Assembly: GCA_902775355.1 (NCBI GenBank)
Contig: CACYLY010000030.1
Location: 1-47,204, forward strand
Length of the DNA stretch: 47,204 nucleotides
Origin: Oscillospiraceae bacterium
GTDB taxonomy: Bacteria; Bacillota; Clostridia; Oscillospirales; Oscillospiraceae
Direction of reading: 5' to 3'
Below are positions 34,467-41,335 of this stretch, piece after piece. The notes under the pieces were generated by a model. That model was not told the origin of the DNA, searched no databases, and was given only the letters and a program-made list of their open reading frames with translations. The translations under genes and the position numbers were made by a program. The stretch's first letter is position 1. Each line of letters begins with the position of its first letter.

Positions 34467-35675
34467 TCATTGTTCATTATTTTGATATACGAGCTTTCCG
34501 CCATGGACGGTCTCCACGCAGCGGCCGAAGACCCGCTGCCCGGCGAAGGGGGTGGCCCGGCCCAGGGACAGGAAGTCCCCGGGGTCGATGACGGTTTCCG
34601 CGTTCAGATCCCAGAGGGAGAAGTCGTCTTCTCTGAGGGGGATGCCGAAGCGTTTCCGGGGCTTGTGGCAGAGCAGCTCCACCAGCGCCTCCAGAGAGAG
34701 CATACCCGTCTTCACCAGGCCGGTATACAGGAGCGGGAAGGCTGTCTCGATGCCGACGATGCCGAAGGCGCTGCCGGCCAGGCCCCGGGCCTTCTCCGCG
34801 GCGCTGTGGGGGGCGTGGTCGGTGGCGATGCAGTCGATGCTGCCGTCGCAGATCCCCTCCAGCAGGGCCTCCCGGTCCGCCCGGGAGCGGAGGGGCGGGT
34901 TCATTTTGAAACGCCCGTCCTCCCGCAGGTCGTTCTCGTCCAGCAGCAGGTAGTGGGGCGCGGTCTCGCAGCTCACGTCCAGCCCGTCCTTTTTTGCCTG
35001 ACGGATCAGATTCAGGGATTCCTTCGTGGAGATGTGGCAGACGTGGTAGCCGCAGCCGGTTTGGGCCGCCAGCTCCAGGTCCCGGGCGATGGGCCGCCAC
35101 TCGCTCTCGGAGCAGATGCCCCTGTGCCCGTGGGCGGCGGCGTAAGCGCCGTCGTGGATGTAGCCGCCCCGGAGCAGGCTGTTGTCCTCACAATGGGCGG
35201 CGATGAGCTTGCCCAGGGCCCTGGCCCGCTCCATGGCCTCCCGCATGAGGCCCGGATCCTGCAGGCCCCGCCCATCGTCGGAAAAGGCGGCGACGTAGGG
35301 AGCCATGCCCTCCAGATCTGCCAGCTCCCGGCCCTGCTCGCCCAGGGTGATGGCGCCGTAGGGCAGCACGTCGATGCAGGCGTCCCGGGCGATGATCTCC
35401 CGCTCGACGGCCAGGTGCTCCGGGCTGTCCGGCACCGGGTCCAGGTTGGGCATGGCGCAGACCGCCGTATACCCGCCCCGGGCCGCGGCCAGGGAACCCG
35501 TGCGGATGGTCTCTTTATAGGAAAAGCCCGGTTCGCGCAGATGTACGTGTACATCGCAGAAACCGGGCAGTCTGGTATATTCGGTTTTCTCCGGGCAGGG
35601 AAAGGCGCTGTCATGGCCGACGAGGGGCAGAATCCCCGCGCCGTGAAGCAGCATGTTCCGGCTGTAAACAGGCAT
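34467..35675 (-). CDS. pyrC: Dihydroorotase
   Basis: A 402-residue class I dihydroorotase, the zinc amidohydrolase that closes carbamoyl aspartate to dihydroorotate. Motifs: PGFCDVHVHLREPGFSYKET with the first two metal histidines, MPNLDPVPDS, further metal ligands in IAAHCEDNS and HVCHISTKES, and CIATDHAPHS. ATG 35675 follows GGAGGGC; the frame upstream to 35717 lies in the attenuator. The end, QNNEQ and stop, is encoded in AT-rich heptads. It is the first gene of the nucleotide cluster. Confidence 0.95.
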   Translation of the reverse strand: MPVYSRNMLLHGAGILPLVGHDSAFPCPEKTEYTRLPGFCDVHVHLREPGFSYKETIRTGSLAAARGGYTAVCAMPNLDPVPDSPEHLAVEREIIARDACIDVLPYGAITLGEQGRELADLEGMAPYVAAFSDDGRGLQDPGLMREAMERARALGKLIAAHCEDNSLLRGGYIHDGAYAAAHGHRGICSESEWRPIARDLELAAQTGCGYHVCHISTKESLNLIRQAKKDGLDVSCETAPHYLLLDENDLREDGRFKMNPPLRSRADREALLEGICDGSIDCIATDHAPHSAAEKARGLAGSAFGIVGIETAFPLLYTGLVKTGMLSLEALVELLCHKPRKRFGIPLREDDFSLWDLNAETVIDPGDFLSLGRATPFAGQRVFGRCVETVHGGKLVYQNNEQ

Positions 35676-35724
35676 GGCCTTGCCCTCCGAAAAAAGAAAT
35701 TCCCCTGCCGGAAGCACGGCAGGG
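35676..35724 (-). terminator. Attenuator before pyrC
   Basis: On the minus strand CCCTGCCG (35717-35724 region) and CGGCAGGG (35703-35710) form an 8-bp stem with a 6-base loop, followed by GGAATTTCTTTTTT and directly by the pyrC ribosome site GGAGGGC. It is an intrinsic terminator in the leader, as expected for transcription attenuation. Confidence 0.8.
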
Positions 35725-35938: not shown

Positions 35939-35967
35939 TTGACAAGGGGGAGGCTGGGCGCTATACT
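35939..35967 (+). promoter_or_regulatory. Promoter of the flavoprotein/DUF1295 cluster
   Basis: TTGACA (35939-35944) and TATACT (35962-35967) with a 17-base spacer, about 50 bases before the GTG start. It is divergent from the pyr promoter, with about 105 bases between the two -35 boxes. Confidence 0.85.
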
Positions 35968-36016
35968 TTTCTTGTGGATATTATACGAGAAAACCCTTTT
36001 GGAAAGGAGCGTTTTT

Positions 36017-36691
36017 GTGAGAGAATTCCTGCTGCAGAACGGCCCGGTCCTGGCCTGGGCCATCACCGCCTTCCACGCCCTGATCCTGGTGCTCTCGCTG
36101 CTGGGTTACCGGAAAACCAGGGAGCCCCTCTTTTTGCTGCTGTGCCTGCTGTGCTTCGGCCTGTGCTATGACGCGCTGATCCAGGCCCTGGGCGCGAGCC
36201 TGGGCGAGGGGGCGGCGCTCACCGGGCTCAGCCGCTTCCGCTATGTGTTCCACGGGGCCCTGATTCCCCTGCTTTTCCCCATCTGCGCCTACGCCCTGGA
36301 CTTCAAAAGGCCCTGGAAGATCGCCGTCTGGGTCCTCACCGGCGTCGTCGTCGCCCTGGGCATCGCCGAGGGCTTTGCCACCGTGATGGTCCCGGAGCGG
36401 GCCGCGGGCATCCTGCGCATGGCCTCGGATAAAAACGCCACCCCAGGCTGGGCCACCGGCGTCAGCATGCTGCTGGCCTTCGGCACCATCATCCCCGTGA
36501 TCCTGGCGGGCATCGCTGCCTGGATCAAGCAGAAGACGCCCCTGCTGTTTCTGGCGGGTCTGCTGATGTTCGCCTTCGCGGCCCTGGGTCCCGCCACCGG
36601 CAACATGGACCTGAACTTCCTCATCACCATGTTCGGGGAAGTGTTCCTGGTGCTCTTCTTCCTGCTCTACGCCCGGCGGAAAGCCAAATGA
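36017..36691 (+). CDS. Multi-pass membrane protein, first gene of cluster
   Basis: An unrecognised 224-residue membrane protein with about seven hydrophobic helices (roughly residues 8-28, 35-55, 78-97, 103-125, 145-170, 178-195, 200-220) and short basic loops. The external N-terminal segment is only about 7 residues. GTG 36017 is chosen because AAAGGAG stands 7 bases before it; the frame is open to 35891, but the promoter lies in that part. It starts the four-gene operon and is followed after 40 bases by the flavoprotein. Helix count and size recall small membrane sensors or quinone/heme-binding proteins, but no conserved His pair or other signature supports that. Confidence 0.72.
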   Translation: MREFLLQNGPVLAWAITAFHALILVLSLLGYRKTREPLFLLLCLLCFGLCYDALIQALGASLGEGAALTGLSRFRYVFHGALIPLLFPICAYALDFKRPWKIAVWVLTGVVVALGIAEGFATVMVPERAAGILRMASDKNATPGWATGVSMLLAFGTIIPVILAGIAAWIKQKTPLLFLAGLLMFAFAALGPATGNMDLNFLITMFGEVFLVLFFLLYARRKAK

Positions 36692-36730
36692 GCAAAACTT
36701 TTTTGGAATATACGAAAGTGAGGTAGTTTC

Positions 36731-37669
36731 ATGAGCAGCTTCAAAGACCTTCGCATCGTAGACAACTTCTACCAGACCAGCTCCTATTTCCCCATGCCCA
36801 CGGTGATGATCTCCACCCTGGCGGAGGACGGCAGCACCTCGGTGGGCTCCTACTCCCTGTGCTTCCCCTACTACATCGCCGGCAAGGGCTACTACGCCAT
36901 GGTGCTGGAGGCCCGCAACTCCTCCAACACCGCCCAGCACCTGCTGGCCGGGCGCAAGACCGTGGCCCTGAACTTCATGCCGGACGGCTTCGGCTACCAC
37001 AAGAAGATCGTGGCCCAGGGCTGGCCCGGGGACACCCCGGCGGAGAAGATGAAGAACTTCGGCTTCACCCTGGAGGACGGCCTGTGCATCGAGGAAGACC
37101 CCAAGACGGCGCGGCCCAAGGTGGTCGCCGAGGCCTACCAGGTCATGGAGTGCACCTGGATGAGCGACCTGGAGAACGCGGAAGAGGACATTGGCAGAAA
37201 GCTGGAGGACGGCTGCTATCCGCCCCCCTACCGGAACTTCAACGGCATCACCAGCCAGTACGGCGCCCACTTCATCCTGCGCATCGACAAGATGCTGATG
37301 AAGCCCAAGTATCACCAGAACATCATTGACGGCGTGAAGGGCCGGCTCTGGCCCAACGTGCTGATCTGCCACGGCTATCGGGACAGCAAGAACTTCTGGT
37401 TCGCCCGGACCCCGCGGCTGGTGCCCGAGATGCTGCCCCTGCGGGAGGCCACCCTCTCCTCCGTGCGCTACGCCGCCGACCGCACCGATCCCGACGTGCA
37501 CTTCACCGACGACGCGCTGCAGATGATCCTGAACGTGCCCCGCATCTTCCTGCCCACGGTGCTCAAGGGCTGCGTCAAGTGGGCCAAGGACCACAACGTC
37601 ACCGAGATCACCGCCAAGGAAATGCAGATCATCAACGACAAGCGCGCCAAGGAGAAGGGCAAGGGCTAA
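36731..37669 (+). CDS. Flavin reductase-like protein with PCP_red-like C-terminal domain
   Basis: A 312-residue protein. Residues about 15-200 resemble the flavin reductase/FMN-binding split barrel (PTVMISTLAEDGSTSVGSYS, then RNSSNTAQHLLAGRKTVALN). The last 55 residues (FTDDALQMILNVPRIFLPTV then CVKWAKDHNVTEITAKEM) look like the small PCP_red domain found at the end of light-independent protochlorophyllide reductase subunits, a helical domain at the enzyme surface. That assignment is by pattern and needs a profile search. RBS GAGGTAG. Genes on both sides encode membrane proteins, and the last gene a steroid-reductase-like enzyme, so a role as a soluble electron donor or reductase is reasonable. 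Family membership of the first domain is likely; function is not known. Confidence 0.72.
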   Translation: MSSFKDLRIVDNFYQTSSYFPMPTVMISTLAEDGSTSVGSYSLCFPYYIAGKGYYAMVLEARNSSNTAQHLLAGRKTVALNFMPDGFGYHKKIVAQGWPGDTPAEKMKNFGFTLEDGLCIEEDPKTARPKVVAEAYQVMECTWMSDLENAEEDIGRKLEDGCYPPPYRNFNGITSQYGAHFILRIDKMLMKPKYHQNIIDGVKGRLWPNVLICHGYRDSKNFWFARTPRLVPEMLPLREATLSSVRYAADRTDPDVHFTDDALQMILNVPRIFLPTVLKGCVKWAKDHNVTEITAKEMQIINDKRAKEKGKG

Positions 37670-37682
37670 AGGAGAGACGGCC

Positions 37683-38312
37683 ATGGAAGGCGAAGTGTAT
37701 GATTTCTCCCTTGTAATGGGCCTGACAGACTTTATCCCGGTGTTCCTGTTCTTCGTCAGCCTGGTGCTGCTGCAGCGGGATCTCTACAACAAGATGCCCA
37801 AGTACGCCTTTGCCTGCTTTGCCGCCGGCACCATCAACATTTTCATTGCGGGCTTTATGAAGGCTCTGTGGAAGACCCTGTACGCCGTCGGCGTCTGCGA
37901 CTTTCAGGTGCTCAACACCATGTTTCTGCCCACCCAGTCACTGGGCTTCCTGCTGGCGGGCCTGGGCATCATCCTGATGTTCAACGGAAAGAAGAAGGCC
38001 GCCCTGGCTGTGGCAGCTCCCACGGTCTTCAAGGGCACCATGGTGTTCATCCCCATGATGGTGCTGGGCCTGGGCGCCATCTGCGCCTGCCTGGGCGTGC
38101 TGGCCGCGAAGATGAAGAAAAAGGGCCTGATCCCCGTGTTCGTGCTCTGCTTCATCGCCTACATGGCCATGGGCTACCTCTCCTCCAGGGGGGACAACAG
38201 CGCCGCCGCCAACTGGATCGAGCAGGGCGTCAACACCCTGGGCATGGTCCTGCTGCTCTGGGGCACCCTGGGCCTGCACAGGGCGGGCCTGCGGGAATTC
38301 GAACTTGAATAA
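37683..38312 (+). CDS. Multi-pass membrane protein, third gene of cluster
   Basis: An unrecognised 209-residue protein with about six helices (around 15-30, 42-62, 80-98, 105-135 as two, 148-165, 180-198) and basic loops with KKK clusters. It starts 13 bases after the flavoprotein stop with AGGAGAG before the ATG, and ends 25 bases before the DUF1295 gene. It has no resemblance to a known transporter that I can name. Its Gly/Ala/Leu-rich composition is like that of the first gene, and both may form a membrane complex with the enzyme genes. Confidence 0.7.
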   Translation: MEGEVYDFSLVMGLTDFIPVFLFFVSLVLLQRDLYNKMPKYAFACFAAGTINIFIAGFMKALWKTLYAVGVCDFQVLNTMFLPTQSLGFLLAGLGIILMFNGKKKAALAVAAPTVFKGTMVFIPMMVLGLGAICACLGVLAAKMKKKGLIPVFVLCFIAYMAMGYLSSRGDNSAAANWIEQGVNTLGMVLLLWGTLGLHRAGLREFELE

Positions 38313-38337
38313 AAATTTTTGAAAGAAGGTATTTGTC

Positions 38338-39180
38338 ATGACTGCTGAACCCGTTGTCGACGTAATTGCAAGCTATCCCGGCTGGTATTTCTGGCTCCTC
38401 TTCGGACTGGCCATGCTGGTCAGCTCCATCGGCTTCAAAAACTATGTCTGGTTCATCTCCCTGGGCTACGGCTTCTCCATCGCCGCCGCCGGCATCCTGA
38501 TGCTGATCCTCTTCCACGCCACCCTGACCCCCGGCACCACCATCTGCTGCGTGATCTTCTTCCTCTACGGCTGCCGCCTGGGCGGGTATCTTGCCTACCG
38601 CGAGCTCAAGAGCACCTCGTACAAGAAGAACATGGTGGGCGAGATCAAGGACGGCAAGACCGTTCCCATGGGCGTGAAGCTGGCCATCTGGGTCACCTGC
38701 GCCCTGCTCTACGCCACCCAGGTCTCCCCGGTGTTCTACCGCATGTTCAACGCCCCCGCCGGCGTCACGGACAACGCCTGGGTCTTCATCGGCGCCGTCA
38801 TCATGGTCTGCGGCATCACCCTGGAGTCCGCCGCCGACATCCAGAAGAACAAGGCCAAGAAGGTCAATCCCAAGCGCTGGGTGGACACCGGCCTCTTCCG
38901 CATCGTCCGCTGCCCCAACTACCTGGGCGAGATGATCTTCTGGACCGGCGTGCTGCTCAGCGGCATCGGCGCGGTGAAGGGCTGGCAGTGGCTGGTCTGC
39001 GCCATCGGCTACTGCGGCATCATCTTCGTCATGTTCTCCGGCGCCCGCCGTTTGGAGGTCCGCCAGAACAAGCGCTACGGCAGCGACCCCGACTACCAGA
39101 AGTTCGTCACGACCGTGCCCATCCTGCTGCCCTTCGTCCCGCTCTACAGCGTGGAAAAGTACAAGTGGCTGGTGGCCTGA
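38338..39180 (+). CDS. DUF1295/steroid 5-alpha-reductase-like membrane enzyme
   Basis: A 280-residue integral membrane protein with the DUF1295 / 3-oxo-5-alpha-steroid 4-dehydrogenase C-terminal signature: WVDTGLFRIVRCPNYLGEMI, FMFSGARRLEVRQNKRYGSD and DYQKFVTTVPILLPFVPLY. The pattern (RxPNYxGE, then ExR, then RYG and Y) is the cofactor-binding part of the isoprenylcysteine methyltransferase/steroid reductase superfamily. About six or seven helices precede and include it. Such enzymes reduce enone double bonds of steroids or isoprenoids with NADPH. The substrate here is unknown; a host steroid, bile acid, or a membrane isoprenoid are all possible. It ends at a strong terminator. Confidence 0.82.
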   Translation: MTAEPVVDVIASYPGWYFWLLFGLAMLVSSIGFKNYVWFISLGYGFSIAAAGILMLILFHATLTPGTTICCVIFFLYGCRLGGYLAYRELKSTSYKKNMVGEIKDGKTVPMGVKLAIWVTCALLYATQVSPVFYRMFNAPAGVTDNAWVFIGAVIMVCGITLESAADIQKNKAKKVNPKRWVDTGLFRIVRCPNYLGEMIFWTGVLLSGIGAVKGWQWLVCAIGYCGIIFVMFSGARRLEVRQNKRYGSDPDYQKFVTTVPILLPFVPLYSVEKYKWLVA

Positions 39181-39198
39181 TCGAAACAGCGACAAAAA

Positions 39199-39233
39199 AC
39201 TCCTCCGGAATTGCTTCCGGAGGAGTTTTTTTT
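39199..39233 (+). terminator. Terminator of the flavoprotein/DUF1295 cluster
   Basis: ACTCCTCCGGAA and TTCCGGAGGAGT (12-bp perfect stem, TTGC loop) followed by TTTTTTTT. Preceding AAAAA allows function on both strands. Confidence 0.93.

Positions 39234-39821: not shown

Positions 39822-41335
<1,514 letters not shown>

Follow-up and report, generated by a model that had tools for sequence, protein, structure and literature searches.

A conserved four-gene membrane cluster of gut Oscillospiraceae and its partner genes: a possible module for tetrapyrrole reduction

What is the substrate of the redox genes that lie side by side at positions 36017-39180 of a 47,204-nucleotide stretch of Oscillospiraceae DNA (contig CACYLY010000030.1, here called the window)? 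The four genes, P1 to P4, are all on the forward strand. They encode a membrane protein outside known families (P1, 36017-36691, 224 amino acids from a GTG start), a flavin-reductase-like split-barrel protein (P2, 36731-37669, 312 amino acids), a second membrane protein outside known families (P3, 37683-38312, 209 amino acids) and a membrane enzyme of the DUF1295/steroid 5-alpha-reductase family (P4, 38338-39180, 280 amino acids). A first-pass annotation had proposed that P2 supplies electrons to P4 for reduction of a steroid or a bile acid. We favour another answer, with confidence slightly short of even: a modular accessory system, represented in the window by P1 to P4, would let anaerobic gut Bacillota reduce a tetrapyrrole, likeliest a linear bilin or a pigment derived from chlorophyll.

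The pointer to tetrapyrroles comes from a fifth, unannotated gene, Y, which resides outside the window; in relatives it is found beside P1/P2, P3 or a further partner, X, and in several genomes it is the first gene of the operon. The fold predicted for Y, over its full length, is that of the ferredoxin-dependent bilin reductase/red chlorophyll catabolite reductase (RCCR) superfamily, which also includes coproporphyrinogen oxidase. Y features an invariant Asp and a weak, family-specific sequence match to bilin reductases, the best member scoring 27.3 bits and the modelled member 17.6 bits against Fe_bilin_red (PF05996), below the Pfam cut-off of 31. The Y gene of G036, interrupted by one internal TGA, was left out of the Y alignment (A8). 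By its predicted fold Y points to tetrapyrroles, with ferredoxin-dependent bilin reduction as a putative activity, and favours pigment reduction over steroid reduction. In the window's genome an open reading frame with a long PTPEP repeat adjoins Y (L131:223-1482, reverse strand; G000:C35).

The distribution of the genes was monitored in 99 related genomes, the window's own included, 28 of which carry P2. Counted as present are a 61-residue piece at a contig end in G025, pieces on two contigs in G005 and G019, and a gene split over two frames in G026. Among 61 genomes of the same genus P2 was found in 25, Y in 18, a strong P4 in 15 and X in 8 (for P4, 15 of 19 profile-matched genomes were kept and the weak G056, G063, G078 and G079, E 2e-4 to 2e-18, dropped). 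All genomes with Y, P4 or X also have P2, and P4 is nested in Y. Fisher tests, relatedness being ignored, give p = 3.7e-10 for P2 with Y, 4.6e-8 with P4 and 3.7e-4 with X; ten extra genomes were left out because P2 was not searched in them. Among the 25 P2-bearing genomes X and P4 show no positive association, P4 being present in two of the eight with X.

A scan of species genomes confirmed at least 355 P2 relatives, the best 80 of which were fetched as 34 close and 46 distant loci, the latter with P2 59-66% identical. Cluster genes in them were called at more than 40 bits with custom profiles; the TetR profile derives from a single sequence, and a few X calls may be other short-chain dehydrogenases/reductases (SDRs). 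Genomes with G handles and named contigs overlap (G006:C60, for example, is L051), and the two sets are therefore not independent. Close loci carry P3 (27), P1 (18), P4 (14), Y (6) and X (1), several contigs ending within the cluster. The order P1-P2-P3-P4 is found in nine and Y-P1-P2-P3-P4 in four more, and all four genes thus co-occur in 13 of 34 loci, which bears out the earlier expectation that the set is found outside this strain. Distant loci feature a TetR-like gene upstream (22), X (18), P3 (18), P4 (17), Y (7) and P1 (1), the commonest long order being TetR-P2-X-P4-P3. The sole distant relative of P1 (48% identity) stands behind Y at the operon end in L125:4887-6223, and bridges the two operon types. 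Among the carriers is Erysipelotrichaceae bacterium NK3D112 (L089), a cultured strain. In L096:9279-11361, from goat omasum, P4 is followed by a pyridoxamine-5'-phosphate-oxidase-like protein, Y and a classical SDR, perhaps an enlarged module; L107:6930-11042 has two Y-like genes, one between P2 and X, the other after P3. Since P2 also occurs without the others, the set is modular. No other cluster gene accompanies P2 in the stretches covered of L046, L047, L048 and distant loci such as L085-L088, and P2 therefore probably has a use of its own. P2 relatives were missing from the plasmids searched, and from viral contigs in a search for close relatives only.

P1, P2 and P3 gave nothing significant in Pfam and NCBIfam scans, and P2 itself matched no Pfam family at E<=1. 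The membership of P2 in Flavin_Reduct (PF01613) consequently runs through its family, 46 of 55 scanned members of which match at E<=10 (best 2.8e-7). The AlphaFold model of P2 (predicted local distance difference test 84.6, predicted template modelling score 0.77) has a split-barrel fold and in Foldseek searches of solved structures retrieves flavin reductases and flavoredoxin, with a best E of 7.7e-9. These data agree with the flavin-reductase assignment of the first-pass annotation, and P2 is best modelled as a divergent protein of this fold with putative binding of flavin mononucleotide or flavin adenine dinucleotide. A flavodoxin identity, suggested by a match over residues 101-138 (E 0.0024), was rejected, the match being set aside as local because the predicted fold is a split barrel.

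The last part of P2 (37448-37666, forward strand, about residues 240-312) is helical in the predicted model and weakly resembles PCP_red, a domain to which the same annotation had likened it. The likeness is weak and uncertain. The C-terminal profile and the end of BchB align in register, and in an hhalign control BchB ranked first among 139 C-termini, itself included and all from one plasmid, scoring 18.8 against a mean of 9.8 (standard deviation 2.4; runner-up 17.8). However, only 2 of 55 P2-family members match PCP_red (PF08369), at a best E of 0.13, on a par with other chance-level rows, and BchB fell outside the top eight when 498 open reading frames were searched with a hidden Markov model. 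The curated PF08369 matched none of 20 relatives, and one of 14 control genomes, that of Synechococcus elongatus. A remote relationship to PCP_red is possible on these alignments.

P4 matches DUF1295 (PF06966) with E 6.4e-29 and 101.5 bits (cut-off 20.4) and, narrowly, Steroid_dh with 24.4 bits (cut-off 22.6), as foreseen by the first-pass annotation; the latter match shows kinship rather than substrate, and a steroid 5-alpha-reductase function is putative. The best solved structure for the P4 profile is a bacterial 3-oxo-5-alpha-steroid 4-dehydrogenase (E 6e-5). A 19-residue scan found six hydrophobic segments in P4, seven in P1 and five in P3. Neither P1 nor P3 has a recurrent Pfam family in scans of their families, and both stand as the unrecognised membrane proteins they had been taken for; comparison of the P1, P3 and P4 profiles with each other revealed no kinship.

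X is an atypical NAD(P)-binding SDR (NAD_binding_10/NmrA) which adjoins P4 in many distant loci. In L163:700-2349 (G017:C50) X is the rear portion of a 549-amino-acid fusion whose N-terminal part contains Fer4 clusters and matches Flavodoxin_5 weakly (E 0.003), an indirect pointer to ferredoxin-dependent bilin reduction. X frames in G025, G026, G032 and G034 are about as long as this fusion; the domain scan covered G017 only. Identities of the divinyl-reductase, isoflavone-reductase or biliverdin-reductase type were considered for X and are not claimed, because the profile search (E<=1e-5) lists NDUFA9, triphenylmethane reductase and other general SDRs.

The four genes of the window are separated by gaps of 39, 13 and 25 nucleotides. 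A purine-rich stretch resembling a ribosome-binding site, GGAAAGGAG (36001-36009, forward strand, read from the sequence), precedes the GTG start of P1, and a sigma-70-like site, TTGACA-17-TATACT, lies at 35939-35967 on the same strand, a consensus match at 11 of 12 positions. The promoter scan returned two sites in 4.2 kb, both strands included, against a shuffle mean of 0.8, and the site alone is hence modestly above chance. Downstream of P4 a strong intrinsic terminator hairpin on the forward strand (39194-39231) folds with -27.1 kcal/mol (z -6.1), an energy equalled by none of 200 shuffles; it was recovered by folding, a simple terminator scan giving no match there. The arrangement described earlier, a promoter, four tight genes and a terminator, is thus found in the sequence. 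Reverse-strand frames on the two sides resemble, by eye only, dihydroorotase (34467-35717) and phosphoenolpyruvate carboxykinase (40040-41335).

How these parts might work together can be sketched as follows. Y would be the central enzyme, reducing the pigment with low-potential electrons that would arrive through a ferredoxin or flavodoxin-type carrier, probably ferredoxin, and perhaps through flavin on P2, which may act as a flavin-bound electron carrier or co-reductase. X could serve as another reductase or as the point where electrons enter, and may add NAD(P)H-dependent steps. P4 may act on a hydrophobic intermediate or on a side chain, reducing a conjugated C=C bond there; P1 and P3 may anchor or pass on the substrate, or keep the partners at the membrane. 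The source of the genomes fits such a scheme: of 80 record titles, 33 refer to the rumen or to a herbivorous host (one, 'Lapin', was read as rabbit), other titles shown naming no host, though these titles cover the best 80 of at least 355 P2 loci and collections are skewed to ruminants. Such sources are no less compatible with plant pigments or phytol than with host steroids, and diet-derived chlorophyll products would suit the hosts.

Several observations weigh against tetrapyrrole reduction. In the window's genome Y lies outside the operon, on the separate contig C35, and X was not found; Y is beside a cluster gene in 8 of 18 Y-bearing genomes of the genus (G019, G023, G026, G033, G035, G039, G040 and G046), and unlinked, as far as observed, in the other 10. 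The majority of Y members score too low for Fe_bilin_red, and PF05996 in its curated form matches none of 149 genomes of the phylum, and one of 14 control genomes (Synechococcus elongatus). Two subunits of the FtsHi complex share the fold of Y, which alone is therefore no proof of catalysis. The X profile matches general atypical SDRs, led by NDUFA9 of complex I, and no tetrapyrrole enzyme is listed. The family of P4 is known for steroids and lipids. P2 is alone in 7 of 34 close loci, and in 18 of 46 distant ones its strand has no further cluster gene. Where a distant locus extends 3.5 kb or more downstream and 1 kb or more upstream (26 loci), X, P3, P4 and Y are all missing in 11, and 4 of 25 P2-bearing genomes of the genus have neither X, P4 nor Y. 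The co-occurrence p values, finally, come from genomes many of which are incomplete, and carry no correction for relatedness.

Among the alternatives, the best placed, still unlikely, is that P4 reduces a polyprenal or dietary phytenal, X carrying out alcohol or aldehyde steps and Y being a secondary partner. SRD5A3 is a precedent for this in the family of P4, X as an NAD(P)-binding SDR next to P4 in many distant loci would suit it, and so would plant-eating hosts. Yet it leaves Y, P2 and the ferredoxin fusion without a role, and X is absent from the P4-bearing genome of the window and does not track P4 in the genus. Somewhat more improbable is a module for the synthesis or recycling of one of the bacterium's own tetrapyrrole-type pigments or cofactors, with no outside compound as its target. 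The inclusion of coproporphyrinogen oxidase in the superfamily of Y and the two undescribed membrane protein families are consistent with it, but the patchy occurrence of P2 within the genus (25 of 61 genomes) and the TetR-like gene of 22 of 46 distant loci better suit an inducible accessory function.

The proposal of the first-pass annotation, reduction of a steroid or bile-acid enone by P4 in the membrane with electrons from P2, fares marginally worse and is held improbable. The two family matches of P4 and the dehydrogenase structure speak for it; that match, however, covers the cofactor-side stretch (CPNYLGE), no steroid-specific partner gene was found, Y belongs by fold to a tetrapyrrole superfamily, and many of the genomes were recorded from the rumen or forestomach, compartments ahead of bile entry. 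Beyond the family of P4 nothing was found for such a substrate. No better is the chance that P2 works with the membrane proteins as an all-purpose electron-transfer or redox-stress unit tied to no particular substrate, Y being a common neighbour with a separate function, a view which draws on the lone P2 genes and the unlinked Y of the window's genome and is countered by the nested co-occurrence (P4 within Y within P2) and by the operons headed by Y.

Tetrapyrrole reduction can be cast in a wider form, tentative and clearly less probable: an undescribed pathway of the anaerobic herbivore gut, reducing chlorophyll- or haem-derived tetrapyrroles. Its parts would be a new branch of the bilin-reductase/RCCR superfamily, a protein of flavin-reductase fold whose last domain may be PCP_red-like, an SDR that can have a ferredoxin built in, a membrane enzyme akin to 5-alpha-reductases and two novel families of membrane proteins. 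If true, the pathway could have a share in converting chlorophyll to phytoporphyrin or phyllobilin-like products in the rumen. According to the available text of PMC3907879, phytoporphyrin is a bacterial product of chlorophyll in the gut of grazing livestock and causes photosensitization on liver failure; that text names no enzyme forming it. No description of the set P1-P4/X/Y was found among the open-access papers that literature searches listed, the range covered. Recurrence of a protein with the bilin-reductase fold in operons of anaerobic gut Bacillota would open the microbial degradation of haem or chlorophyll pigments in the gut to tests of single genes.

Comparison with known systems places each part. 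P2 shares the split-barrel fold of flavin reductases and flavoredoxins (NbaA 4z85, 1eje, SgcE6, flavoredoxin 3bnk), from which it differs by an identity of about 10-16% and by its extra C-terminal helical domain. P4 is of the same family as DUF1295 proteins and 3-oxo-5-alpha-steroid 4-dehydrogenases, a C-P-N-Y-x-G-E stretch being common to P4 and 7c83, but differs in gene setting and has a putative substrate; the match of its profile to human SRD5A2 (7bw1) is insignificant (E 0.49). The reaction proposed here, anaerobic gut reduction of a linear tetrapyrrole, resembles that of the gut-bacterial bilirubin reductases BilR and BilV, as presented in the accessible parts of PMC10769871 and PMC13252198, the second of which assigns BilV to the Old Yellow Enzyme family. 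Unlike BilV, P1-P4, X and Y showed no match to that family in Pfam scans. The known bilin reductases belong largely to phototrophs, plants and cyanophages, and to some heterotrophic bacteria, according to the available text of PMC10151467. Y has in common with the ferredoxin-dependent enzymes (PcyA, PebA/PebB, PebS, HY2) and with pre-PcyA the predicted fold, a weak sequence match and the invariant Asp, and differs in an identity of about 8-17% in structure alignments and in the position of most members below the Pfam cut-off. From RCCR of plants, about 8% identical, Y is further set apart as the product of a bacterial operon with flavin and membrane proteins. In neighbour clustering of 52 loci no haem oxygenase, V4R or globin gene was spotted by eye, no profile search being aimed at them. 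In the portion of PMC10151467 available, pre-PcyA genes of non-photosynthetic bacteria adjoin haem oxygenase, Fe-S, V4R and globin genes, and others genes for a B12-binding protein and a globin, whereas the neighbours of Y are P1, P2, P3, P4 and X.

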